From the IMG/VR virus record IMGVR_UViG_3300030331_002097, positions 1 to 30,313 of that record: DNA of 30,313 bases. The stretch is one strand, 5' to 3'. The translations under genes and the position numbers were made by a program. This stretch comes from a virus. Below the pieces are notes generated by a model that worked only from the letters and a program-made list of their open reading frames with translations, ran no database searches and had not been told where the DNA came from. Shown piece after piece: positions 549 through 28,944 of the stretch (position 1 is its first letter; every line of letters starts with the position of its first letter).

Positions 549-3500
549 TTAGTTAACTCTGTCGTTATGAAGGCGTGAGCGCTCAAAGATAGCGTTCACA
601 GCGTACAACTCGTTTTTGGTGGTAGAGCTGTTCGTGAGTTTGATTTTTAAGAAGTAGTCGCGCAGTGGGTCTCCCGTAACGTGACCTGTGTCAGAAGCGT
701 TCCTTGCGATTAGGTTATCTGCATCCGCAAGTCCACTGACTCCACTTACTTTCAAGGTAAACCTGTCGTGGACACCCTCGATTGTGATGCCTGTGGTATT
801 GCCGTCCGCTGCATCGAACAGCGTATCTCCGATGTTGAATGGAATGTTGTCTACGCGAGACGTGAAGGTTACTCTGTCGTTGGCACCGTCAATACCCGAC
901 GTAGCCACAACTCCAACAGCAATCTCGTCTAGCTTGCTAGTATTGCTTGTGTCACCGGGCATATCACAGTATAACATTCCCTCCCGGAACCCATCGCCAG
1001 CCCTTACTTGGCCGTCAATGTCTTGGTCCTTCCACATGTTTGTGGTGATTGTAGAAGTCTGTTCTCTGTTAGAAAGCTCTGCAGTCCACACTGAGTTACC
1101 TTCAAGGCTGATTGCCTTGTAGAGCTTCACCATGGACGGGTTTTTCTTTGCAATAACCTCAATGACTGCGTTGTGAGCTACACCGTAATAGTTGAGCGGC
1201 GTTGCTGAAGGGCTGTGAAGGAATACTTTTCCAGCAGAAAAGCTTACCATATCCTCAAATATTGGGCACATGTCTTCGGGCCTATAGCTATACTTGCTAG
1301 TCCAAACGCCTTGCTTGAAGTTGTAAGCAATCGTAGTTCTGTCAGCAACAGATACTGAGCTTTTTGAAAGAGTAGACGCTGAGTTGTTTTTTGAACCGCC
1401 ACCAGCACCTTCATTTAGAACACCTCTCATATCAGACCCGACTTGCTTAACCATCTTGCCGTAGAAATCATTGCGCTGATTTGTAACAAGAAGGTCTTGA
1501 GTTCCTTTGGTGCTAAGTTCTGATTCTACAAAACCAATTTCAGTTGGGTGGTCAACAAAGATAACGCCCTTGCCAGCTTCGTCCCAATCTAATACATGCA
1601 CCTCCCAGTTTTGATTTTCGTTAATGATGTCGAGCGGTGAGCCTTTAATCGTGTAAACCTTTCTCAAACCGTTCAGGTCAAAGCTAGTGTCGGTGTCGAG
1701 GTCTACTGGAAGTCCTCTTCCGAATGTAGTTCCCCCAGCCGAAATAGTTCTACGCTGTTTGCTATTGATGGAAAACACAATTTCATTTTGGTCGATGTGT
1801 ACGCCAGTGATAACTCCTGAGGCAGAGCGTCCAGCCTGTACGCTTCTCAGCTGAGTAGAAAAGAAACTACTAGCCTTAGCATCGCTAATAATTTTTATTT
1901 GATTGCCAGCAAGAGCACAGACAACACCCTTCTCCGCATCAACAAAGTAAATGATTCCATCATGCTCCCTGACACCCATGCTGAACATACCCGGGCCGTA
2001 GTCGCTAGGCGAGTATATCTCTTTGCCAAGAACATTTGTAGAGGTAATAAGCACGCCCCCTTCTGCGGTATTGATGTAGTCTCTACTGACAGGAGTTTTA
2101 GAGCACTTTCTTTCTTGCAACACCGCCAGTCCAGCGCCCTCGTCAATTAGTTTGCAGATGTCACCGTACCTAAGGGAGTAGTCCTTGAACGGGAACAGTG
2201 ATGGGTTGAAACTAGAAAGGTTGAGCACCTCACCATCTGACGCGTATGGGTCACTGTAGGTAACTGATGAACCCCTAACGTTTACTTGAAACTCTGGGTT
2301 GTAGAAGTGAGGTCTTCCAAAATGATAGTTTCTTGTGACAGTAGAGTCCAAGTAATCATTGAAGCCCGGGTCTTCGATATTTGTAAGCCTAAAGTTTACA
2401 GACGTAGCTTCAGTCAGGTCGCTTGGGTCAAACTCAAGTGTCGTTGAGTTGAACGAAGATGTCCTCATGTCTCTCTTACGATAGTATGTATCGCCTTGGT
2501 CTGTCAGGTGTACTGCCCTGAACGAGCCCTTTGTAAACACACAGAATGCTGCCGGAATAGGCGCTTCGGGATTTGCAGAGGTTCCGTCTGCAAGGGTTAC
2601 ACCATTTGGCGCATCAAAGCCATCGTTGACTGCGCCGGGACCTCCTGATGCTGAAACTCTGTACCTGTAGTATGTGCCGCTGCCATCCTCGTATATCCCT
2701 AGTGGCCGTACTATTTCGTGAGTCGCAAGGCTTATTGAAGCAAAATCACCGCCAGCAGAGCCAAACCCTCCTACCCCAAAAAAGTCTGGGTCCGTATTGT
2801 TTTCAGCAGGAAATGAAACTGGGCGAATAGTGTCGCCCCTAAACAGCCTCACCCTGCTTTTGATTTCGCTGACACCTGTAAACGCCACCGCTCCTTCAGT
2901 AGCTGCTTGGTTGTATACACTTCTCCTAGAATCATCCGATACAGAAAATGACTCACCAATTTCAAAGTACACAATCTCCTCATCCACAGGCTGTACTTTT
3001 GGTCTCAAGATTTCTACAACACAGTTCTTTTTCCAGTTGTCGCTTTCACCACTCCCCTGAATGTCTGCAACCGAAAATCCTGTATGAACATTGTTTTCTT
3101 TAACAATCAACATCCAACCTGAGCGCCTGTACTCACCCTCCTTGGTAAAGTTACCGTCAGCAGCATGTGGCAAGGACAGGACATTCTTTTCTGAGTTGGG
3201 CTCAAAGTGCTTGTAGTCGATGATGTCAAAGAAATGATTTTCCGGAAAGTTTGTAATTACTTCAGGGTTACCTTCTTCCGTTCCGGGATTGATGTCTTGA
3301 TAGCTAACAATCCGAAGCTTGTCTCCCGGTCTAAACTGGTAATCAAGTTTGACTCCGAAAGATGACTTGTACGAATCCGTCTTCCCCTCAAAGAATCTGA
3401 AAGGAAGATAAATGGCGTTACTAAGAATGCCAGCAGACTCAGCCGCAGCCAAACTCGTGAAGTTTGCTTCTGCCGCTGCATCTGTTCCGGAAGCGCTAGA

Positions 3501-6227
3501 AGAATCAAGAGTCTCCTCGAGGTCTTCACTGTCAGTGAGTGAGGGGTCTCTAATTACAACCCTGCTCATGTCAGCAAGAAGCGCCTCAGGGACGCTGTGC
3601 GTAAGAGAGAACTCATACTGAGAGTTACCCGCGTAAACAATCTGATACCTTTCCGCCCAATCTGGAATGTAAGAGGTTGGAAATGTCACGTCAATGTCAT
3701 AGGGAACAAGACGATTTACTTCGTTGCCAACAACAGAGGCTGCGTCTCCACTAAAAGGAACATAGGCTTCCCTCAAAAGCTTTACCGTAGAGCTTCTGTT
3801 TCTGTGGTCGTAAAACACGCAGCCAAGGGGGTGATTGGCCCCGGAGCGGAAGGTAAGCCTGTTGTCGCCCTTGTCGCCCTGAATAGACCCAGCATTGCCA
3901 AACACTATACGAGCATTTGTTTTAGTGTGCATCCAGTCTAGAATCATACACCTAAAAAGGTCTTCTTCATTGGCGCTGTTGACGCTGCCATCTACAGAAA
4001 AGCAATTAGCCTGAAGCACGCTTGCTGAATCGCCCAAAATAATTTCCTGACGATTGGCTGCGTACTGTGGTTCAATAGGAATTGCGCCAAAGCCATTGTC
4101 TAATACGTTAGCAACTGGCCCGCCATGCTGAATGTGTGAAACTCTAAATTCTCCACTCCTGCCTTTGTATGTAACGCGGACCCTGTTACCATTGTCTTGA
4201 ACTATGGCAAACGCTGGCTCAATAACGATTTTAGAGTCTTCGCCAGTTCCCCTGCCGTCACAGAAATACCTACAAGCTTTTGACCCCGGTCTGTCTGACG
4301 CGAATGCGCTCACCATTTGATAGTTAACTCCGTGAGCAGTGAGGTATCCAGTTCCTTTAATCTCAACTCCGAAATTGTCAACCTCAATTTGGTCAACAAC
4401 TTTTTGAGCAATGCTTAGTCTTGTGTCTGTATTGTTTACGTTGACCTGAACCTGAACACTTTTACTCCAGTAGTTGTCGGGGGTAGCCCCAATAAATCCT
4501 ACTCCGCATACCTTGGCCATGTCTGGGTCAAACCCCGCATTGTTTAATTGGTCGACAATCCCGCTACCAATGCTATCTCCACCATGGAAAAACTTTAGGT
4601 CCAAGTCTCTTGTCTGGCCCTCTGCTACAGAACCCAGTCCGGGCCTGTATTTAATTCTATACTCTTGCTTTCCATCTTGGTCTCCGTATGTAGGAATCAT
4701 ATATGGTCTGCCGCCCGTGATGAAATACGTTAGAGTCATTTCAGAAGTAGTGCCAATACCTTCCTCTGGAATGTCTGAAAGGTCAATGTCAATCTCCATT
4801 GCGTATGAAGTTGACAAACCCAGCCTAGCGCTTTGCTCATTAGAATCAAGAACATTGTCACCGTTAGTGTCCAACCTCCATTCTATATTCTGAGTGTTGT
4901 TGTCTGCTCTTTGGTAGTAGCCCAACGAAGATTGGAGGGAAGTGCCTGAGGCAATTCCAGTGCCGCCTGCGTCTGGATGAAAGTGGTCCAGATTTTCGTT
5001 TGCAGTTTCACTACTATCAGCGTCTCTCAACACAAAGTAAGAGGGTACTTTATCACCTTGCATGTCTGCGGATGATTGTATACCCTCTACCGCCTCAAAG
5101 ATAGCGTTCTGTATCCCGACAGTTACAGGAAACGATTGACTTCTAGTGTTAGAAGATTTGGTTTGTACCCACTCTGAGGTGTCAAACCCGTCAACGTAGT
5201 TGCCAAAAAACAGTCTGTTCTCAACCACACTAAGAGTCTTTGCCTTCAAAGGCACAGCGTCAAAGAGCTTGTTGGTTTCCTGCTCCGAAATAAAACGATA
5301 GGCCTTGGTGTTCGTAAAGTTAGAAACAGTCTGTCCGTTACTGTATGCTGTATCTACCTCGTCAAACACCACGAAAGAACCTGTGTTCCCAGCTCTAGCC
5401 AAAAACCTAACTGCTACTACATCGCCATCCTGATTCTCATTGTTGGAATTGACCTTCTTTTGGGTGACGTCAATAGAGTCAAAGGGAGTGTTGTAGAGGT
5501 CGGCCATAGTCCCGTCCACATTAAAGTGGTTGTCCTCGTAGGTAAGCTTAGAGTAGGGACCAATCGCAGAAACCTCACCATCAGCATAGACATACTGAGT
5601 TGCAAACTGAAACACACGGTCAATAACCCTATTGTTTGAGTTGGCATCGCCAGAAACGCTAAATTCAAATGTTGGCGGTTTCATTGGTGGACGCTTGCAA
5701 ACTGTAATGTAATTGCTTACTGTGCTTGCCGTGTCGTCGTCAATAGCACTCTCGTAGCTGTTGCTTAGAAGCCTAGAGACGTTAAGCTTTCGCGGTTCGT
5801 TTTTTCCGTCAGTAAAGTACAACAGGGTATCACCCTTACCAGTCTTTACAACGTCACCCTGAATGTGCATACCCTTCTCGAAAGCAAGAGCGCTGTTTTG
5901 GTAGAGCTTGACATATCTGTTTTCGTCTTGCTCGTACATGTAAACACCGTGGTCTTCGTTGCTGTTGTACAAAAAGTAGAATAGCACACCGCCTGCGTCA
6001 AAGTTGACAGAGCCAATGATAAGGTTAATGCCGCTTGAAGGAATTGTATCGGAAGAAGTTTTCGGGCTGACCTCTGCGTTTCCATCAGCTTGTTTTACAA
6101 CGCCCGCATCGTTTTCTTGGTTTCCAGAGATGAACACATTTTCTGCATTCGTCATCTGCATAGCCTGCACCAAGCGTTCGTCGTCATCCAAGTTTAGATG
6201 TCGAGGTATCAGTTTGTCAATAGCCAT
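549..6227 (-). CDS. Giant tail protein, nozzle/stabilisation-like (1,892 aa)
   Basis: A very long structural protein. The N-terminus (PRHLNLDDDERLV, then NAENVFISGNQEN.AGVVK at about residues 9-45) has the layout seen at the start of podovirus nozzle/tail-tube B and P22-type stabilisation proteins. A later stretch, GIIYFVDAEKGVVCALAGNQ and on to IKIISDAKASSFF, resembles the beta-propeller strands of those proteins. Most of the sequence is beta-rich with no membrane segments. Residues 453-464 (DTNGDNVLDSNE) form a complete EF-hand-type calcium loop. The start ATG overlaps the stop of the upstream connector gene by one base (TGATG), indicating coupled translation. T7 and P22 nozzle proteins are well under 1,000 residues, so extra domains must be present; fusion with other tail functions is possible. 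Family assignment is inference from weak similarity and position. Confidence 0.6.
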   Translation of the reverse strand: MAIDKLIPRHLNLDDDERLVQAMQMTNAENVFISGNQENDAGVVKQADGNAEVSPKTSSDTIPSSGINLIIGSVNFDAGGVLFYFLYNSNEDHGVYMYEQDENRYVKLYQNSALAFEKGMHIQGDVVKTGKGDTLLYFTDGKNEPRKLNVSRLLSNSYESAIDDDTASTVSNYITVCKRPPMKPPTFEFSVSGDANSNNRVIDRVFQFATQYVYADGEVSAIGPYSKLTYEDNHFNVDGTMADLYNTPFDSIDVTQKKVNSNNENQDGDVVAVRFLARAGNTGSFVVFDEVDTAYSNGQTVSNFTNTKAYRFISEQETNKLFDAVPLKAKTLSVVENRLFFGNYVDGFDTSEWVQTKSSNTRSQSFPVTVGIQNAIFEAVEGIQSSADMQGDKVPSYFVLRDADSSETANENLDHFHPDAGGTGIASGTSLQSSLGYYQRADNNTQNIEWRLDTNGDNVLDSNEQSARLGLSTSYAMEIDIDLSDIPEEGIGTTSEMTLTYFITGGRPYMIPTYGDQDGKQEYRIKYRPGLGSVAEGQTRDLDLKFFHGGDSIGSGIVDQLNNAGFDPDMAKVCGVGFIGATPDNYWSKSVQVQVNVNNTDTRLSIAQKVVDQIEVDNFGVEIKGTGYLTAHGVNYQMVSAFASDRPGSKACRYFCDGRGTGEDSKIVIEPAFAIVQDNGNRVRVTYKGRSGEFRVSHIQHGGPVANVLDNGFGAIPIEPQYAANRQEIILGDSASVLQANCFSVDGSVNSANEEDLFRCMILDWMHTKTNARIVFGNAGSIQGDKGDNRLTFRSGANHPLGCVFYDHRNRSSTVKLLREAYVPFSGDAASVVGNEVNRLVPYDIDVTFPTSYIPDWAERYQIVYAGNSQYEFSLTHSVPEALLADMSRVVIRDPSLTDSEDLEETLDSSSASGTDAAAEANFTSLAAAESAGILSNAIYLPFRFFEGKTDSYKSSFGVKLDYQFRPGDKLRIVSYQDINPGTEEGNPEVITNFPENHFFDIIDYKHFEPNSEKNVLSLPHAADGNFTKEGEYRRSGWMLIVKENNVHTGFSVADIQGSGESDNWKKNCVVEILRPKVQPVDEEIVYFEIGESFSVSDDSRRSVYNQAATEGAVAFTGVSEIKSRVRLFRGDTIRPVSFPAENNTDPDFFGVGGFGSAGGDFASISLATHEIVRPLGIYEDGSGTYYRYRVSASGGPGAVNDGFDAPNGVTLADGTSANPEAPIPAAFCVFTKGSFRAVHLTDQGDTYYRKRDMRTSSFNSTTLEFDPSDLTEATSVNFRLTNIEDPGFNDYLDSTVTRNYHFGRPHFYNPEFQVNVRGSSVTYSDPYASDGEVLNLSSFNPSLFPFKDYSLRYGDICKLIDEGAGLAVLQERKCSKTPVSRDYINTAEGGVLITSTNVLGKEIYSPSDYGPGMFSMGVREHDGIIYFVDAEKGVVCALAGNQIKIISDAKASSFFSTQLRSVQAGRSASGVITGVHIDQNEIVFSINSKQRRTISAGGTTFGRGLPVDLDTDTSFDLNGLRKVYTIKGSPLDIINENQNWEVHVLDWDEAGKGVIFVDHPTEIGFVESELSTKGTQDLLVTNQRNDFYGKMVKQVGSDMRGVLNEGAGGGSKNNSASTLSKSSVSVADRTTIAYNFKQGVWTSKYSYRPEDMCPIFEDMVSFSAGKVFLHSPSATPLNYYGVAHNAVIEVIAKKNPSMVKLYKAISLEGNSVWTAELSNREQTSTITTNMWKDQDIDGQVRAGDGFREGMLYCDMPGDTSNTSKLDEIAVGVVATSGIDGANDRVTFTSRVDNIPFNIGDTLFDAADGNTTGITIEGVHDRFTLKVSGVSGLADADNLIARNASDTGHVTGDPLRDYFLKIKLTNSSTTKNELYAVNAIFERSRLHNDRVN

Positions 6228-11088: not shown

Positions 11089-12249
11089 TTAAAACTTGAA
11101 AGTCATTCCCTTGTCACCTCCCATGGCAGCTGCGAGCTGTTCAACAATCTTGCTTCTTTGAGCTTCAGCCGAGGTGTCTACCTGCTGGGACTGTGGAGTC
11201 ACAGGAGCGACGTTAGAGGCTTGGTGAACCACACGACGTTGGCCATCGCTCATACCCTGTCGGTACACCGCGTTGACAATGTTGTCAATGTTGTCCATCA
11301 CTGCTCGATGAGAGTTAAGAAGGTCGTAGTCCCACTTGCCATCGTCAGAGACGTAGGAATCAAAAAACGATTCGAGGTTCGCATTTTTGTCCTTCAATGC
11401 TGACTTGTACTGGTCGGCTAGGCCGTAGGTAAATGTCTTACCCGTGGGCAAATCAAATGAAATGCCGTCCAGATTGTCAACCTCTTTGGACATGTTTGCG
11501 ACCCACTGGTCGTCAATGGGGCTCATAAATTCATCTTCAGTGGTTCGATTAGGGTCCGGCGTAGCGAACGCCTCACGAATCTCTTCGATAGATTGACGAG
11601 CCTTGTCGGCTGCCACCTTCAGTTCCACAGCTGATGTAGCGATTTCCTCATCGGTGTACCTGTCCGTGTCGAGCTTGTACTTATTGTTCATAAGCGTATC
11701 AATCTCTCCGGGCGTCAGGTTGGGGTGTTCCATCTGCATCTGCATACGCACAGCCCTGCTATCATCCATTTCGGAAGTGTTCAAGGACTGGTACTTATAC
11801 CAATCATCAACGGAACGACCCGTCTCGGTGACGAACTCGTTAATAGCTGCGACACTGGGGTCAATGTCAGCCTTCCTGTTAAACTGCTGGCTCACTTCGT
11901 CGAAGCTATCGAACTTCATGTTCAGCCTTTCGCTGAGCTTCTGAAGCGCAATGGCATCTTCGTCGATTGCCTGCGGTTGCACAGGTTCTTGTGTCGGAGC
12001 TTGTGGCTCCGTGTATTCTTGTCTGAAGACAACTTCTTGAGGTTCAGGCTCCGGTTGTGGAGCGGGCTCAGGAGTCTCCTGCACGGGCTCGGGAGCTTCT
12101 TCCACTACGGGTTGTGTAGCTTGTGGTTCCGAGGGTTCAGGCTCCGGCGAGGGCGCAGGAGCTTCCTGAGGTGTATTCAAAAAGTCAGGGGTGTCACTAA
12201 TTGTAATCCCCTGTGCTTCAGCTGCAATTTCTAATTCGTGCTTAGCCAT
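11089..12249 (-). CDS. Probable scaffold protein (386 aa)
   Basis: Residues about 20-95 are a Pro/Glu/Gln/Ala low-complexity stretch (many PEP, PEPE and QEP units), followed by acidic, helix-rich sequence through about residue 340 and a small basic/hydrophobic C-terminus (MGGDKGMTFKF). This acidic, helical, low-complexity make-up and its place immediately upstream of the major capsid gene are typical of phage scaffolds, whose C-terminus contacts the capsid protein. No protease signature is seen. The start at 12249 is preceded by AT-rich sequence (TAAATTTAATATA) without a Shine-Dalgarno. Function is inferred from composition and context. Confidence 0.65.
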   Translation of the reverse strand: MAKHELEIAAEAQGITISDTPDFLNTPQEAPAPSPEPEPSEPQATQPVVEEAPEPVQETPEPAPQPEPEPQEVVFRQEYTEPQAPTQEPVQPQAIDEDAIALQKLSERLNMKFDSFDEVSQQFNRKADIDPSVAAINEFVTETGRSVDDWYKYQSLNTSEMDDSRAVRMQMQMEHPNLTPGEIDTLMNNKYKLDTDRYTDEEIATSAVELKVAADKARQSIEEIREAFATPDPNRTTEDEFMSPIDDQWVANMSKEVDNLDGISFDLPTGKTFTYGLADQYKSALKDKNANLESFFDSYVSDDGKWDYDLLNSHRAVMDNIDNIVNAVYRQGMSDGQRRVVHQASNVAPVTPQSQQVDTSAEAQRSKIVEQLAAAMGGDKGMTFKF

Positions 12250-20799: not shown

Positions 20800-21255
20800 A
20801 TGAAGAGACACAGACCTGAGCGCAAAATGCGTGAGTTCTCATACCTCCACGAAAAGTACGTAAACAAGAACTACCTCAAGTATCTAAGACTAGCAGAGAC
20901 AGATATGTCTCAACATCACGACATCAGACCAGTAGAGATGCAGGTAATGTTATTTGGCTACGACTACGAGTTCTTCACGGCCACGCACATCGCAAAGTCA
21001 CTGTTTGCATCTCCCAAAAAGTTTAGGGAGCGCACACTGCAGCCGATGATGAAGAAGGGATTGATACACGTGGTGCATCGCAGGTTCAACGTCGACACGG
21101 GCTCAGAAGCTGACATGTACTTTGTTGAGGAGGCAAAGACGAACTACAAGCACAGGTACGGGCTGACGCCCAAAGCTAGACACTTGGTGCAGAGGTTTTA
21201 CCGAAAGCTAGAGGGAGAAGAAGCGATTAAGATTTCTTGTGAGAAGCAATCTTGA
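20800..21255 (+). CDS. Winged-helix (MarR-like) DNA-binding regulator (151 aa)
   Basis: The only rightward gene within the leftward half. Residues about 60-105 have the winged-helix order: FFTATHIAKSLFASPKKFRE (first helices and recognition helix), TLQPMMKKGLIHVVH (third helix into the wing), and then RRFNVDTGSEADMYF (wing strands). This is followed by YGLTPKARHLVQRFYRKLEGEE, the LT..G...v..fy..L pattern at the end of MarR-type domains. The N-terminus is very basic (MKRHRPERKMREFSYLHEKY). It would bind DNA as a dimer and is well placed to regulate the divergent structural promoter 7 bp away and its own. Its last 29 bp overlap the 3' end of a convergent gene. The fold is well supported; the target is inference. 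Confidence 0.7.
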   Translation: MKRHRPERKMREFSYLHEKYVNKNYLKYLRLAETDMSQHHDIRPVEMQVMLFGYDYEFFTATHIAKSLFASPKKFRERTLQPMMKKGLIHVVHRRFNVDTGSEADMYFVEEAKTNYKHRYGLTPKARHLVQRFYRKLEGEEAIKISCEKQS

Positions 21256-21418: not shown

Positions 21419-21555
21419 GAGTTGTCAGTTATCAACTGAGAAAAATAAGCGTGTATCTTAGGAGAGGATTCTTGAGTAAAAACAACCTGAAGTGCTTTTG
21501 ACATTTTCACTATCTCTTCTGAGCTGAAATGTATCCTGTTTGGCCAATAGTCCAT
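21415..21555 (-). CDS. Very small unrecognised protein (46 aa)
   Basis: An open frame of 46 codons, MDYWPNRIHFSSEEIVKM to QLITDNS, that fits exactly between its neighbours. Its ATG shares one base with the upstream stop (TAATG) and its TGA overlaps the downstream ATG (ATGA). Such coupling at both ends is strong evidence for a real gene. It is a soluble helical peptide with no recognised family. Confidence 0.7.
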   Translation of the reverse strand: MDYWPNRIHFSSEEIVKMSKALQVVFTQESSPKIHAYFSQLITDNS

Positions 21556-21992
21556 TAGTAAGTGATTGATGCTGTAACCTCTGTGGATTCGTACCCTGCA
21601 AGTGTTAAATCTCCTGTAACAACAATGGTGTCACCACTACCTGCTCCTACTAGTGACTCAAAGTTATTGTTTCCTGTTGAAAGAAAGTGTCCAGAACCAA
21701 TTTGGCCTAGATTGGCTGTGAAATTAAATGTTTGACCTGAAGCGCTGGTGCCATCTGTTTGATTGTTTACAGTGGCGCTCGTTATGCTGAAATCTCTTTC
21801 AAAACCTGTAAAGTCATTTGGGTCAAGTATTAGCAAAATAGGAGTTGCTCTTACAGAACCACTTAGAGATATGGCTGGAGTTGTGACGCCCGATACGTTG
21901 ACGTTACCAAATGATTGGATGCGTGACGGAAGCTTTTTAATTTTTGCACTTCTTCTGCGTCTTGCAGAATTTGAAATTCCTATCTGTCTCAT
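21555..21992 (-). CDS. Small protein with basic N-terminus and Ig-like beta domain (145 aa)
   Basis: Start chosen at MRQIGISNSARRRRSAKIKK (complement of 21990-21992), which overlaps the upstream stop codon as ATGA; upstream in-frame starts lie inside the giant gene. A very basic segment (RRRRSAKIKK) is followed by about 110 residues of Thr/Ser/Gly/Asn-rich strands, such as RATPILLILDPNDF and DTIVVTGDLTLAGYESTEV, ending in TASITY. This suggests one Ig-like beta sandwich as found on virion surfaces. Function is unknown. Confidence 0.65.
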   Translation of the reverse strand: MRQIGISNSARRRRSAKIKKLPSRIQSFGNVNVSGVTTPAISLSGSVRATPILLILDPNDFTGFERDFSITSATVNNQTDGTSASGQTFNFTANLGQIGSGHFLSTGNNNFESLVGAGSGDTIVVTGDLTLAGYESTEVTASITY

Positions 21993-24900
21993 GTTGTCGG
22001 TATTGGTGGCGGCGCTTCGCCTGTTTCTGCATACCCTTGTGGTGACCATCCATCTCCGAAGTAATCTTCTTGGTCAAAGTCATCGTAATCAAAATCAACC
22101 CATACGCCGTCGTCAAAGTATCCGAACTGACCAAACTGAAATTCGCCTTCATCGCCAGCAAATGACCCAAAGAAGTCGACGAATTGAACCAAGTCACTTT
22201 CGTCTAAATCGCCATCATTTGTTAAGTCCAAGGCATCAAACTCAGGGCTTCCCTCAGTAAAATCTCCAGACTGAAGTAGTTCTAGTAACAACGTTACGTC
22301 AGCTTCAGTATAAAATCCGTCGTTGTTGAGGTCTGGGTCGTCAAACTGCTCAATGAACTCAAGGAGCTGTGGGTACAAAAATACCGAGAACGCTAGCTCC
22401 GGGGGAGGCATTGTGCCATTAAGTTGAAAAGCAATATTGGCAGTGTGGAATGCTTGCGCTTGCAGTCCAGCGTAAATATTGTTTACCTGAATAAAGTTTC
22501 CGTCAGGACCTATGTAGTAGGCTCCTTCAATCAAAGAATCTGCAATGACTCCAATCAATCCCCCCTGTTGTGTGTTGTTTGGGTTACCAAATATTTGAGC
22601 GAAATACTGTGCGGTAGTTAGATTGACGGTTGTGCCAAAAGTGATGAAGATATCTGTCATCCCTGATATGTCAACATCAGTTTCAACTCCAAAGACACCT
22701 AGCTGAATAAATGGGCCAAACAAAGAGTACAAAGCAGCTGCTTCATCTGAAGCTTCACCGCTCATTATCATAGATGTAACGAAGTTGTTGACGAGGCTAA
22801 AGGTTGAAGCGCCCGGCCCCATAAGTTCTATGGCCAACGTATTTAGAGAGAGCTGACCATCAACAGCTGCACCGGGTAGGGCAGCAACAATCATCTGGTA
22901 AAGCTGACCGTATAGGTTAATTTCTGCGGTGTTGATTTGCCCATCTCCATTAAAGTCTATAGCCGCAATTCCCACCGGGTTAGCTATTGCGTACTCAGAA
23001 ATAAAGTTGGCGCTTGAAGCAGCAGCAAGAGCATCTTCTAATCCATCACCCAGAGAGCCAGCGCCTGCAATAATAGGCACAAGCGAGTCGGGCCCTGTGT
23101 ACGGTCCGGCTGGAACAAAGAACTCATTTGGGTCGATGCCGTTCTGCAGGTAGAAATCTGAGTAAGAGTTTAGTGCATTTTCGTCAGGAAGAATCGCTTG
23201 AAGAAGCGGTACAACAAGACTTCCAAATAACCCACCATTACCACCATCGTCACCTGCAAACGAGTTAGCGCTGAATACTTCGGTAATGTTTACCCAGTTG
23301 GGGTCAATTAAATTAAACCAATCAGCAGTAGATAGAGGGGAGTTGGGGTTCATCTCCATAAGTGTCGTGAACCAATTAGGTGTCTGACCTCCGGAGTCGA
23401 TGTAGTCGTTTGCGTATTGGAAGACCAAGAAGTAGGCTAAGGCATAGGCAGGGTTGAATCCAGTGTAAGGTCCTGACTCTCCAAACTCAGCTCCTTCATA
23501 CATAAATGGGTTCAGTCCGCCGTAGCTGTAAAGGGAGTTGCTAAGCAGTCCCTGCTGGTTTAGGACTAGGTCGCCCGGAGTCATAAAACCTCCGTACCAC
23601 AAATCACTTGAGGTGAGGTTGTATAACGCTTGGTTTGAGAAATTATTTTGAGTGGCATAAAACGCAGACCAGCCAATTCCAATGTTTCCTGCGTAAAACG
23701 AGGCCATAGGCCAGCTAAGTCCATTATAGTTATTATACGCTCCCTGTAGAATCCATGCGTACACGGCAAGGAAGTCGCCGAACCCTACATTTCCGTCGCC
23801 ATCAAAATCAATCATACCGCCTGTTCTATTCAAGAAATCAGGGATGTCAATATACTCACCCGCTTGCTCTGCACCCGGCGTAGGTGCATCACCATAGATT
23901 CCTTCGACACCTTCTGATGGGTTGATGGAAAGGTTTGGTGGGGGTGGTGGTGTGTAAAACGGAGTGCTGTCTATGAAGGCATTATAGGTAAACAAGAACT
24001 CACTTGACGTCAAGTCTAACTCAAAGTTGTAGAATTGAACGTCAAAAAGGGCAGGACCCTGTCCTTGATAATAGGCGTAATCGTCGTAGTCGTCTCCCAG
24101 CTCCCAACCAGCTGGTGCCCAAATGACCCCCATCCCCGGAGACATAATAGTTGATTCTCCTGTATTTGGGTCAAAATACCCAACAAGCCCCATGAATCCG
24201 GTGTAAAGCCAGTTGCTAAACGCAGCTTGGTCGGCTACGAATCCATCTTCAGATTGCACATAGCTTGCAAGTGACGATGCTTGTTCGGAGTCATATCCTA
24301 GATACTCAAACAATGATTCATAGCTGTAGTCAAACCCATCAGGGCCTTGTGCCGTTGGGTCAGCGTTTAAGTTTTGATGTCCAAATGAAGTAGCCAAAAA
24401 CAACAATGCTGCATTTTGAGCTAGATGGTTGAACGGTTCAGTGTTCTCTTGACCGATAATGTTTGCCCATTCAGGTATTCCACCAACGCTGTTTACCCAG
24501 TCGGAGCACTCGTTCAGAAGCTGTGGCATTATGTTGAGTGCCTCCCCAAATACTTCTGGGGTAATGTCTGAAAGCTGATTTACCTGTGGGTGGTTGTTAA
24601 TTAAAAATTCTACAACGCTATTGTCTAGGTCTAATGGGTTGTATTGTGTGTCACCGTCTGGGTCAAAAAAGTTTGCGGAAATCCAGCTAGCAATCTGAGA
24701 TTGATATGCTTCTACTTGAGCGTTAGGGCCTTGACCAGCCCATGTGTTGTAGTTAGGTGAGTCCTGAGTATAGTTTGCATCGTAACCATTACTCATCCAT
24801 GTAGAAAATGAATTAGCAAAGGCGATGTACCAATCAGGGGTTTCTGACTGAAGGTCAGCGGGGAGTCCATAGTTCTCACCCCAAGTAGGTCTTTGGTTGG

Positions 24901-26218
24901 CCCAGTTGAGCTCTTGAAGCTGCAGAATTTCATCAGCCTCTTGCTCTTCGACGTACGCATCTACATCTCCTTGGTCCAAAAGGTTGAAGATAAGTGGTGG
25001 GTTCTCTGTAGGATTGTTAATGTTAAACAGATTCTGCGTGTCATCCCACTCACCGTTCGTGCTGAAGTATAGATTACCTCCGGCCATTTCTGTACCGTAG
25101 TAAGCGTAGTACTCGATGATTTGGTCGATGTCATCCTGAGTAAAGATGTTGTTCGCCTCAGATATATCCGTGCCGTTAGTGACAGCAGATACCATCTCTG
25201 TAAAGTCTGCCCATGCCGCGATGTCAGCACCATTAAAGGTGCCGTCATTGTTTACATCGAAGATGTTTCCAGAGAATGGGTTGTAGTCTGTATCGTTGAT
25301 GGATACATCAAAGTTCCCAATGCCTTGGCCCTGAGACTCGATGTAGTTCATCATGTCTTGGAAGTTGGTGTCGCTGTATCCAAGCGGGTCTCCTGCAACA
25401 TTTGACATGTAAACATCCGCGTAGATGTTCATTATTGGCAGCATGTTTGCATCGAACCATGCGCCCAGGTCCTCGAGGTCAGCCTCGGTGGGCTGTGGGT
25501 TCATAAGGAGAGTGTCGAAGAAGTCGTCAGGCACATTGCCTTGATACGCATCGAACACGGCTTGCAATGCGGAGGTGTACTGGTTGGGGGTAGGATTATT
25601 CCAGTCAAGGGGAATTGGATAGAACAAAGTGAGGTTTTCCTCATTAAAAGCCTCGGAAGCCATGTAGTCTGACCAAGTAAGAAGAGACTCTCCAATCCCG
25701 TCTTCTGTAGGTTCGTAGTAAGCGGCGGTTCCGTTAAAGCTTTCACCCGGGTTAAAGAATAGACCAGCGTTGTTCAAGAAAGACATCTGCCCAGCGTTGT
25801 TCCAAAACAAACCCTGAAATTGCTGACCCAATAAGCTGCCACCCGGTTCCACAGACTGAGCAACAACTGTCATGAAAAAGTCGATGATACCTGCGACGTC
25901 AAGAACGTCTAGCGCTCCATCACCGGACGTATCCATGTTACCACCCTGAAGAGCAATGGCGTTTTCAAACGCATCGACAGCTTGCCTGTACGATTCTGGA
26001 AGCTGTGGAGCCTCTTGAACTGGCGGGTCGGGAATTGGTGGCGGGACTACATCGTCGTCGTCCTGCTGCTGATTCGCCTGTTGGTTCGACAGCAGATAGG
26101 AAGAGTAGTCGTCACGAGCTGCCGTAACGTCACGCTTCTTTACTTCAGGGCCTAGTGGGCGAGCCTTCTCGCCGTGCTCCCGGTCATCGAAGGTCGCCGA
26201 TAGCTTCTTCAGCTTCAT
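21989..26218 (-). CDS. Giant dockerin/EF-hand-repeat protein (1,409 aa)
   Basis: An acidic, Asn/Tyr/Trp/Gly/Ala-rich protein without a signal peptide or membrane span. After a basic N-terminus and a Gln/Asp/Pro-rich linker (about 45-70) it carries seven 12-residue calcium loops of dockerin/EF-hand type (D-x-N/D/S/T-x-D-x6-D/E). They begin at residues 96 (DTSGDGALDVLD), 321 (DVNNDGTFNGAD), 519 (DPDGDTQYNPLD), 804 (DFDGDGNVGFGD), 1088 (DFNGDGQINTAE), 1296 (DLNNDGFYTEAD) and 1331 (DLTNDGDLDESD). Each is followed by a hydrophobic helix. The last two are 35 residues apart, like the paired repeats of a dockerin domain. The sequences between the loops are not recognised. The genes around it are small phage proteins, so a virion surface, adhesion or host-range role is plausible. 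The start is well placed, 3 bp before the next stop. I know of no described phage family with this arrangement. Confidence 0.8.
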   Translation of the reverse strand: MKLKKLSATFDDREHGEKARPLGPEVKKRDVTAARDDYSSYLLSNQQANQQQDDDDVVPPPIPDPPVQEAPQLPESYRQAVDAFENAIALQGGNMDTSGDGALDVLDVAGIIDFFMTVVAQSVEPGGSLLGQQFQGLFWNNAGQMSFLNNAGLFFNPGESFNGTAAYYEPTEDGIGESLLTWSDYMASEAFNEENLTLFYPIPLDWNNPTPNQYTSALQAVFDAYQGNVPDDFFDTLLMNPQPTEADLEDLGAWFDANMLPIMNIYADVYMSNVAGDPLGYSDTNFQDMMNYIESQGQGIGNFDVSINDTDYNPFSGNIFDVNNDGTFNGADIAAWADFTEMVSAVTNGTDISEANNIFTQDDIDQIIEYYAYYGTEMAGGNLYFSTNGEWDDTQNLFNINNPTENPPLIFNLLDQGDVDAYVEEQEADEILQLQELNWANQRPTWGENYGLPADLQSETPDWYIAFANSFSTWMSNGYDANYTQDSPNYNTWAGQGPNAQVEAYQSQIASWISANFFDPDGDTQYNPLDLDNSVVEFLINNHPQVNQLSDITPEVFGEALNIMPQLLNECSDWVNSVGGIPEWANIIGQENTEPFNHLAQNAALLFLATSFGHQNLNADPTAQGPDGFDYSYESLFEYLGYDSEQASSLASYVQSEDGFVADQAAFSNWLYTGFMGLVGYFDPNTGESTIMSPGMGVIWAPAGWELGDDYDDYAYYQGQGPALFDVQFYNFELDLTSSEFLFTYNAFIDSTPFYTPPPPPNLSINPSEGVEGIYGDAPTPGAEQAGEYIDIPDFLNRTGGMIDFDGDGNVGFGDFLAVYAWILQGAYNNYNGLSWPMASFYAGNIGIGWSAFYATQNNFSNQALYNLTSSDLWYGGFMTPGDLVLNQQGLLSNSLYSYGGLNPFMYEGAEFGESGPYTGFNPAYALAYFLVFQYANDYIDSGGQTPNWFTTLMEMNPNSPLSTADWFNLIDPNWVNITEVFSANSFAGDDGGNGGLFGSLVVPLLQAILPDENALNSYSDFYLQNGIDPNEFFVPAGPYTGPDSLVPIIAGAGSLGDGLEDALAAASSANFISEYAIANPVGIAAIDFNGDGQINTAEINLYGQLYQMIVAALPGAAVDGQLSLNTLAIELMGPGASTFSLVNNFVTSMIMSGEASDEAAALYSLFGPFIQLGVFGVETDVDISGMTDIFITFGTTVNLTTAQYFAQIFGNPNNTQQGGLIGVIADSLIEGAYYIGPDGNFIQVNNIYAGLQAQAFHTANIAFQLNGTMPPPELAFSVFLYPQLLEFIEQFDDPDLNNDGFYTEADVTLLLELLQSGDFTEGSPEFDALDLTNDGDLDESDLVQFVDFFGSFAGDEGEFQFGQFGYFDDGVWVDFDYDDFDQEDYFGDGWSPQGYAETGEAPPPIPTT

Positions 26219-26221
26219 GGC

Positions 26222-26722
26222 TTACTTCTTTCTGTTGTCTCGCAACATTTTAACAAAGTCAGCGGGGTCCATGACCGAAAAGCCTCCTTCGTGAAACTTC
26301 TTCATCATCATGCCCTTCTCAGCCTTCATATCTTTCTTCTTGAGCATCATGCCCTCCTCACCAGTCTGCAGCGGGTCAGCACCTGAGCCTGAAATGGTAG
26401 CGCCGGGAGTTCCCGGGTCAATGGTGGGGTCGCCGTAGTTTGCAGTCTGAGTCTGCACCCCGTCGTCGTCAGTAGTTACCGTGTAGCTTTCAATTACACC
26501 GGGAGTGATTGTTGGCTGGTCAGCAGTGTATGGGTCACCTGTCACTGTTGTGCCAGTAAACTTGCGCTCTACATCTGCTGCCAGTGGCATGGATGGTCCA
26601 CCGTGCTCTGGGTCGCGGAAGGTTCCGCTTCTACCTGCTGCTGCTTTCTGGGTCATCGCCTTGCGCTGAGCCATCTTGTTCATTGCGGGCATACCGCCCT
26701 CTTGCATCTTCTTAGTTCTCAT
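26222..26722 (-). CDS. Lys/Met/Gly-rich protein sharing a motif with the giant protein (166 aa)
   Basis: Basic, Met/Lys/Gly-rich ends (KKMQEGGMPAMNKMAQRKAM at the start; EGMMLKKKDMKAEKGMMMKK near 124-143) flank a Thr/Asp/Gly-rich acidic middle (about 55-120), perhaps a small beta region. Residues 34-53, TFRDPEHGGPSMPLAADVER, align without gaps to residues 9-28 of the giant protein (TFDDREHGEKARPLGPEVKK). A KFHEGGFSVMDPADFVKML helix ends the protein. It overlaps the upstream DUF5675-like gene by 4 bp and lies 3 bp before the giant gene. The KGMM motif is also found in the 153-residue protein upstream. Function is unknown; an assembly partner of the giant protein is possible. Confidence 0.65.
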   Translation of the reverse strand: MRTKKMQEGGMPAMNKMAQRKAMTQKAAAGRSGTFRDPEHGGPSMPLAADVERKFTGTTVTGDPYTADQPTITPGVIESYTVTTDDDGVQTQTANYGDPTIDPGTPGATISGSGADPLQTGEEGMMLKKKDMKAEKGMMMKKFHEGGFSVMDPADFVKMLRDNRKK

Positions 26723-27222
26723 AAGTTCAGTTTTGCGATGATAACATCATTAAGGTCGACGTACTCGATGCGAACATTCCTTCCGTCATTAAGTGCCTTC
26801 AAAATTTTTGGGTAGACACGTTTGTAAGCTTGTGTTGATTTTCCAATAAACCCATCATCCAAGAGCTGGTTGTTCTCTTGGCTGTCACCAAGTAGAAGAC
26901 ATCCTGCTGTGTGCTCGTCTGTGTTGCCACAGTGGATAAGGATGTATTCAAAGTTAGGAACGTCTCGCACCCACAGCATGCCCTCATGGATATCGGGAAA
27001 ACGCTCGGAGTACTTGGCGTCAAACCCGCCCTCGGTGCGAAGTGTAATGTCGTAAGTCCCCTCTGGTATTCTTGTTTCTTTTCTCCTCTTTCTTTTTCTC
27101 TCTTCGTCTTCTAGGGTATAGCACAAAAACTCACGTCCGTCAGGGAAAAGCTCAACCAAAATACCATTGGTCGAGTCTCCGCTATCCGAAAACCTGAGTA
27201 CCTGTAAGTGCATGTCCCTCAT
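26719..27222 (-). CDS. DUF5675-like protein, possible cell-wall enzyme (167 aa)
   Basis: The sequence follows the order I recall for the DUF5675 family: FLCYTLEDEERKRKRRKETR, RIPEGTYDITLRTEGGF, HEGMLWVRDVPNFEYILIHC, then GNTDEHTAGCLLLGDS. The conserved His...Gly-Asn...Thr-x-Gly-Cys block (H108, C118 approximately) recalls the catalytic His and Cys of L,D-transpeptidases. A role in wall degradation or lysis is therefore an attractive but unproven idea; the family has no established function that I know of. There is no signal peptide. The start overlaps the upstream stop (ATGA). Confidence 0.65.
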   Translation of the reverse strand: MRDMHLQVLRFSDSGDSTNGILVELFPDGREFLCYTLEDEERKRKRRKETRIPEGTYDITLRTEGGFDAKYSERFPDIHEGMLWVRDVPNFEYILIHCGNTDEHTAGCLLLGDSQENNQLLDDGFIGKSTQAYKRVYPKILKALNDGRNVRIEYVDLNDVIIAKLNL

Positions 27223-27680
27223 GAACCAACCTTCTTCTGTGCTTCTTTGTGTGACGCTGTAAAGGACGAGCCCTTAAGCATTGCGTTAGTCATCTCCTGA
27301 AGGTGCTTCTTTGTGTGATGCTTAGAGTGCTTCTTCATGGTTTTCTGCTGTCTCTTGGTAAGACCGCTAACATCTACTCCCTTCACCATCATACCCTTAT
27401 CTGCCTTCTTAACCATCATACCCTTCTCGCCACTTGGAGTCTTTGCGTCCTTAGCCGCGTCCTTCATGAGCTCGGTCTTGTTGCCGTCACCATCAATGTC
27501 GATAAAGTCTGGCTTACCACCTTGATTGTACATTTTACCTCCGTAGGCGAAAGACTTCTTTGCGAGCTTGACAGTTCCGTTAGCCATACCCTCCTTGACT
27601 TGGTCAAAAGTCATAGCGTTAACCTTACCGCCAGCGGCGTAAGTATTGTAAGTCTTGGGTTTCTTTTTTGCTGTTGGCAT
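27219..27680 (-). CDS. Lys/Gly-rich protein with one EF-hand-like loop and KGMM repeats (153 aa)
   Basis: A highly basic protein beginning MPTAKKKPKTYNTYAAGGKV. Residues 61-72 read DIDGDGNKTELM, which matches the first nine positions of an EF-hand loop but lacks the final acidic residue. The GGKPDFIDIDGDGNKTE stretch resembles a motif I recall from many marine-phage hypothetical proteins. Two KGMMVK units follow (about 86-100), then a His/Lys-rich helical tail (KKHSKHHTKKHLQEMTNAML). It is the first gene after a TAGATTTG promoter element. Function is unknown. Confidence 0.65.
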   Translation of the reverse strand: MPTAKKKPKTYNTYAAGGKVNAMTFDQVKEGMANGTVKLAKKSFAYGGKMYNQGGKPDFIDIDGDGNKTELMKDAAKDAKTPSGEKGMMVKKADKGMMVKGVDVSGLTKRQQKTMKKHSKHHTKKHLQEMTNAMLKGSSFTASHKEAQKKVGS

Positions 27681-28529: not shown

Positions 28530-28603
28530 GCTCTCGTAGCTCAACTGGATAGAGCGACAGCCTTCTAAGCTGTAGGTTGCAGGTTCGAGCCCTGCCGGGA
28601 GTA
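28530..28603 (+). tRNA. tRNA-Arg (anticodon UCU)
   Basis: A full cloverleaf of 74 nt. The acceptor stem is GCTCTCG with CGGGAGT (G-U pairs at the first and fifth positions) and the discriminator is A. The anticodon stem ACAGC/GCTGT encloses loop CTTCTAA with anticodon TCT at 28564-28566, and the T-arm is GCAGG-TTCGAGC-CCTGC. The CCA end is not encoded. It reads AGA (and AGG by wobble). Phages often carry tRNAs for codons that are rarer in the host; codon counts would be needed to test that here. Confidence 0.95.
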
Positions 28604-28944
28604 CAGCACTCCAAAAAAAGGAAACACATACATGTCCCCCGGAAAAGTCCTGAGAAATGTGTGGGGTGGGGATTATGTCTATATGTACACGCGCGTCACG
28701 TCAGCCCGAAGTCGATTCTGCGCGATGGGGGGGTAGCATATTGCCGTGTCGTTGCGTCAAACTTTCAGCGTTTTTGCTCCCGTACCACACCATAGACGGA
28801 TAGGTCTGAGCAGACCCTTTTGGGGGGAGGTGGGACAACCACATCGTCGGAACTGAGCGACCCTAAACTGACCCCACAAACGGGGTTGGCACGGAGGTTG
28901 ATACGCGCGTCTACAACATTTTTCTGACCTGTGCAAACACATAA
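28604..28944. other. Non-coding stretch after the tRNA
   Basis: No open frame looks like a gene. The stretch has several G runs (GGGGGGG at about 28727-28733, GGGGGG near 28822), a GGTCTG-AG-CAGACC hairpin and an ACCCC-ACAAAC-GGGGT hairpin at 28871-28886. It may be an untranslated transcript or a structured leader. Confidence 0.4.
28803..28816 (+). terminator. Possible weak intrinsic terminator
   Basis: GGTCTGAGCAGACC forms a 5-bp stem with a GAGC loop and is followed by C and TTTT on the plus strand. The stem and U-tract are short, so efficiency is doubtful. It could end the tRNA transcript. Confidence 0.25.

Follow-up and report, generated by a model that had tools for sequence, protein, structure and literature searches.

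The window, a linear viral record of IMG/VR analysed over its whole length of 30,313 bases, carries a late gene block on the minus strand. Read from right to left, the block encodes two basic proteins, a DUF5675 protein, a 166-residue protein and a giant protein of 1,409 residues, and it continues with a gene for a product with a basic N-terminus, a fibre-like ORF of 308 residues, the terminase, the portal and further structural genes. Its sole plus-strand gene (20800-21255, 151 residues) has a counterpart at the same place in the related locus L005 (1591-2046) and probably in L083 (7103-7537). The features considered below lie at these window positions.

26719-27222, minus strand: DUF5675 protein (domain match), a putative lysis or peptidoglycan gene
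26222-26722, minus strand: 166-residue protein with the motif TFRDPEHG..PL..DV, directly upstream of the giant
21989-26218, minus strand: 1,409-residue giant protein with an ATG start (exact ORF)
26114-26218, minus strand: basic N-terminal peptide of the giant, residues 1-35, with 10 K/R (motif common to the upstream gene)
25994-26047, minus strand: Pro-rich linker (VPPPIPDPP...), residues 58-75 (sequence)
25898-25933, minus strand: predicted calcium loop 1, residues 96-107, DTSGDGALDVLD (loop pattern)
25223-25258, minus strand: predicted calcium loop 2, residues 321-332, DVNNDGTFNGAD (loop pattern)
24629-24664, minus strand: loop 3, residues 519-530, DPDGDTQYNPLD (loop pattern)
23936-23950, minus strand: PPPPP linker joining the two bodies, residues 757-761 (sequence)
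23774-23809, minus strand: predicted calcium loop 4, residues 804-815, DFDGDGNVGFGD (loop pattern)
22922-22957, minus strand: predicted calcium loop 5, residues 1088-1099, DFNGDGQINTAE (loop pattern)
22187-22333, minus strand: loops 6 and 7, a dockerin-type pair, residues 1296-1344 (Pfam Dockerin_1 above cut-off)
21555-22037, minus strand: downstream gene with a conserved basic N-terminus (SARRRR) and an exchangeable C-terminus (comparison with related loci)

The terminase shares 41-47% identity, among the best matches listed, with those of Flavobacterium Elemovirus, Cellulophaga phages of the Pervagoviridae and Pachyviridae, and the environmental podovirus ctfjg026; for the portal, identity to the same four is 23-32%. 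This kinship bears out the phage gene-cluster setting proposed in the initial annotation and assigns the phage to a podovirus-like lineage related to Pervagoviridae, Pachyviridae and Elemovirus. Because both proteins resemble those of flavobacterial phages, the host is probably a marine flavobacterium. Elsewhere in the window, a 1,892-residue protein (549-6227, minus strand) matches PF25729, the C-terminal domain of the crassvirus muzzle, below threshold (22.8 bits against a cut-off of 27), and a tRNA-Arg lies at 28530-28604. ARAGORN also called a tRNA-Thr at 11971-12061 (plus strand), possibly spurious, within a 386-residue gene on the opposite strand (11089-12249).

The reading frame of the giant was confirmed exactly as first annotated. 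Its product comprises a basic N-terminal tail, Pro-rich linkers, two large bodies and seven predicted calcium loops, and it is purged of Lys, Arg and His. No hydrophobic N-terminal segment or signal peptide was found, in agreement with the earlier statement that a secretion signal is lacking. Self-BLAST revealed neither internal repeats nor a duplication of the two bodies, and profile comparison of the two halves matched only their shared overlap. Trimeric-fibre repeats, RTX GGxGxD nonapeptide repeats and TSP3-type repeats are likewise absent from the giant. Apart from Dockerin_1, the window protein has no Pfam match above cut-off, no NCBIfam match and nothing in PHROGs; its family is not described by any of these three collections. 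Relatives, detected down to about 25-32% identity, occur only in uncultured IMG/VR contigs, where the family protein measures ~1,400-1,770 residues. The closest include L002, L003 and L004 (61-70% identity) and the partial L009 (61%), followed by L008 (46%), the group of L010-L013 and L016 (32-38%), and L022 with L034-L036 (~27% across the C half). A search of 50,697 phage records returned no relative of the giant, nor did bacterial genomes, covered by a pattern scan driven by the N-terminal peptide only.

All seven dockerin/EF-type loops were located where the initial annotation had put them, starting at residues 96, 321, 519, 804, 1088, 1296 and 1331, with loop 6 reading DLNNDGFYTEAD and loop 7 DLTNDGDLDESD; seven is the count for the window copy. 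Five of the seven satisfy a strict EF-loop pattern for which 0.03 occurrences are expected and which appeared at most twice in any of 20,000 residue shuffles. The looser pattern used originally is weaker, with 1.2 expected and at least seven occurrences in 0.025% of shuffles. The suggestion that the last two loops form a dockerin pair held up in the Pfam profile comparison, with Dockerin_1 (PF00404) scoring 26.7 bits against a curated cut-off of 22.9; this membership covers the loop 6-7 pair only and not the five other loops. The profile also exceeds its cut-off in the homologue L008. Sequence comparison with the PDB gave one weak dockerin match (E 0.09), and the dockerin pair used as a query against the phage records retrieved weak, unrelated matches only. 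Like a type I dockerin (PF00404), loops 6 and 7 are a pair of 12-residue F-hand loops, here spaced by 35 residues, but the giant has five more loops, each single along the chain, and is a phage gene without an enzyme or signal peptide. No cohesin (PF00963) was detected in the window record or in the five related records searched. A cellulosomal or dockerin-anchored secreted protein was considered and rejected, as signal peptide, cohesin, enzyme and other modules are all missing.

Conservation among the homologues provides a second line of evidence. Loops 2, 4, 5 and 6 are mostly retained in the relatives: loop 2 in every homologue of the loop alignment, loop 6 in every homologue reaching its place, loop 4 in imperfect form in L008 and the L010 group, and loop 5 everywhere except in L008, where it is lost, being degenerate in L022. 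Loop 1 is also retained, with an insertion within the loop in L009 and the L010 group. Loop 7 is missing from L022 and L005 and carries one extra residue in L004, but is otherwise kept. Loop 3 has DPDGDT in the window and DPDGDG in nearer relatives and is lost in the L010 group. Across the C half, 12 of 24 ligand positions are invariant as against 30 of 621 other residues (Fisher p=2e-9), and across the N half 12 of 18 as against 123 of 673 (Fisher p=1e-5); both p-values are indicative, owing to a possible slight bias of the aligner towards loops and to the kinship among the sequences, but loops 2 and 6 are unambiguous. Loss of the acidic loop residues in homologues had been named at the outset as grounds for abandoning the idea, and the ligand positions proved to be conserved. 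Since this conservation lies far above background, calcium binding by the loops is very likely real and functional. The opposite view, that they are chance or low-complexity acidic sequence that does not bind calcium, could draw on the D/N/G-rich body and on the losses of loop 3 in the L010 group and loop 5 in L008; it is contradicted by the shuffle control, the ligand-position conservation and the above-cut-off Dockerin_1 match, and we consider it highly improbable.

AlphaFold2 models built from shallow alignments are mostly helical in both parts, with mean pLDDT values of 45.3 (residues 1-756) and 51.8 (residues 765-1409). For six of the seven loops, an exit helix is predicted from loop position 10 onwards, where an F-hand would have it, a weak indication at so low a confidence. 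The models are too uncertain to reveal the shape of the protein, and no internal repeats point to the regular chain of helical modules anticipated in the initial annotation. Fold searches in the PDB and BFVD, with these low-confidence models as queries, gave no match at E<=0.001.

The initial annotation overlooked the near-total loss of Lys, Arg and His outside the N-terminal tail. Residues 37-1409 (1,373 in all) contain no Lys, three Arg and four His, whereas the first 35 residues alone hold 10 K/R; the means for the remaining late genes in the window are 5.2% Lys, 5.0% Arg and 1.5% His. Uninterrupted K/R-free stretches extend over 364, 354 and 611 residues, His makes up 0.29% of the body against 1.47% in those genes, and the protein has a net charge of -190. 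Base composition was rejected as the cause, because it predicts 7.3% K+R, or ~100 residues in the body. Acidic enrichment was rejected as well: D+E is ordinary (14.3% versus 13.6%), so positive charge has been removed rather than negative charge added. The purge recurs in homologues: members of the close group and L008 have bodies with 3-4 K/R, L010-L013 have 12-13, and the L022 protein, 1,765 residues long, has ~16 past residue 36. The few arginines that remain are partly conserved, since most relatives have one that corresponds to R78, and counterparts of R443 and R798 occur in L008 as well as in the close group.

One consequence is practical. Past residue 35, trypsin would release peptides of 43, 720 and 611 residues, so that with trypsin the virion proteomics proposed earlier would fail; cleavage at D/E yields 88 usable peptides. 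The near absence of K/R cut sites across ~1,370 residues could also suggest that the purge is mainly an evasion of trypsin- or gingipain-like proteases or of lysine-targeting conjugation, the loops being merely fold stabilisers. Neither kind of evasion predicts the accompanying depletion of His, which disfavours protease evasion as the sole cause and leaves this account improbable as the main one; it can nevertheless coexist with a fibre function.

The tail that escapes the purge is itself conserved. Residues 1-35 include the motif TF(R/D)D(P/R)EHG-x(5)-PLxxEV, which recurs in the 166-residue protein encoded directly upstream. Local alignment of the two proteins scores 58, against a maximum of 54 in 5,000 shuffles, and the 166-residue gene adjoins the giant in the related loci that have the motif (L002-L004, L009-L013, L016 and L022). 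When the whole of IMG/VR was scanned at the DNA level with a degenerate form of the N-terminal motif, it turned up in these phages only, apart from a single chance match in L028 that is unrelated. The simplest reading of a motif common to two adjacent genes would be a docking peptide.

On its other side, the giant is followed by a gene whose SARRRR N-terminus is kept in the window, L005 and L022, and whose C-terminus is exchanged: it is LamG lectin-like in L005 and in the same-place gene of L002, and of other sequence in the window. The copy in L002 matches a PHROG whose annotation is virion structural protein, although LamG is a widespread domain. A fixed N-terminus combined with a swapped C-terminus is typical of receptor-binding parts, and this neighbour therefore favours, by inference only, an external virion location for the cluster.

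Every one of the 10 loci that have a TerL at least 91% identical to that of the window and extend far enough to include this position carries the giant (L042, L043, L045, L047, L051, L052, L056, L057, L058 and L059). It is absent from all sister-clade loci (TerL ~73%) with enough upstream DNA, whole sister records included; it is thus lineage-specific and accessory rather than a core virion part. Members of the sister clade instead encode other candidate extracellular proteins. L083 (2835-3992), L117 and L118 specify a 385-residue protein that starts with a hydrophobic segment, contains a Peptidase_M43 domain and ends in a dockerin pair; this pair is like that of the giant and comes from a related phage group, but the protease architecture is unrelated. 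A similar but larger Peptidase_M43-type protein occurs in L122. In addition, L066 (600-1805), L062 and L067 encode a phage protein of ~400 residues with ~1.7% K/R, whose CHU_C domain was shown in L066 and which is apparently addressed to the host T9SS.

These proteins bear on the possibility that the giant is no virion component but an extracellular protein freed at lysis, which would fold with seawater calcium and surround the burst cell as an adhesin in soluble form, a matrix or a decoy. Its composition fits an extracellular protein, its gene lies close to the putative lysis gene, and the secreted sister-clade proteins (the M43 protease with its dockerin pair and the T9SS-type CHU_C protein) indicate that the group handles extracellular dockerin-type modules. 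The giant nevertheless has no signal peptide, and the strongly conserved basic motif common to its neighbour suggests docking to a partner, so we regard this non-virion role as unlikely.

A location inside the particle must also be weighed, with the giant as internal or ejected cargo that is attached by its basic N-terminus to the portal or to packaged DNA, and whose purged body avoids DNA for storage and ejection. A basic tail on a body without positive charge would suit a protein that touches DNA at one end only. Crassviruses carry cargo proteins (PMC10172136), and the 1,892-residue muzzle-like protein offers a weak, sub-threshold crassvirus link through PF25729. The calcium loops, by contrast, are hard to explain within a capsid, and the gene is grouped with fibre-like genes. 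Internal virion proteins are, moreover, usually positively charged, and we judge this reading quite unlikely.

We favour, tentatively and at a little short of an even call, an accessory external virion protein, a long fibre or adhesin of podovirus-like phages. The basic N-terminal peptide would dock the giant onto the virion, and the Pro-rich linkers would connect the two large bodies. In the low-calcium cytoplasm the loops would be empty; in seawater (~10 mM calcium) they would fill, and the body would stiffen upon release at lysis. Without positive charge, a protein with a net charge of -190 would not adhere to anionic polysaccharide or nucleic acid; the loss would also leave almost no trypsin-type cut sites. 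In favour of a fibre or adhesin, the giant sits between the DUF5675 gene and the LamG-swapping gene, the same general region contains structural or fibre-like genes in known relatives, and none of the 10 same-clade loci extending to its position lacks it. Against it count the lack of any sequence or fold match to a fibre in PHROGs, the 50,697 phage records, the PDB or BFVD, the absence from the sister clade, the missing trimeric-fibre or internal repeats, and the low confidence of the models. The more specific proposal of a new class of calcium-set fibre, with a docking peptide and a charge-purged body in which single dockerin-type loops lock rigid in seawater calcium after lysis, hidden from trypsin-based proteomics, is rather unlikely as a whole.

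RTX and TSP3 extracellular proteins are acidic and calcium-loaded outside the cell; the giant is acidic too and would likewise take up calcium there, but their repeats are missing from it. In phi38:1, phi18:3 and elemoA (Pervagoviridae, Pachyviridae and Elemovirus), tail-fibre or structural genes lie between the lysis genes and the terminase or upstream of the lysis genes, the same general neighbourhood as that of the giant, but they have no sequence similarity to it. Sampled genes of these known relatives contain 4-15% K/R with a longest K/R-free stretch of at most 79 residues, unlike the giant. The CHAP lysin LysGH15 of Staphylococcus phage GH15 is another phage protein whose calcium loop is EF-hand-like and 12 residues long (PMC4022735), but it has one loop in an enzyme, compared with seven in a protein without a recognisable enzyme domain. 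Most noteworthy is that calcium loops occur together with a very small basic tag and a body virtually without positive charge.

If the fibre reading is correct, a calcium-triggered, charge-purged fibre would be added to phage virion biology, and a very large protein family outside Pfam, NCBIfam and PHROGs would have been identified. The lack of useful tryptic peptides past residue 35 would then give a concrete reason for gaps in published virion proteomes. Dockerin-type calcium modules would be in use among phage late genes, far from cellulosomes. Acidic loops also occur in smaller proteins of these phages: a very basic 153-residue protein of the window (27219-27680, minus strand) contains one (DIDGDGNKTELM), and sister-clade phages likewise carry small basic one-loop proteins, of which those in L119 and L120 have a full acidic loop (DANKDGKISGTD).
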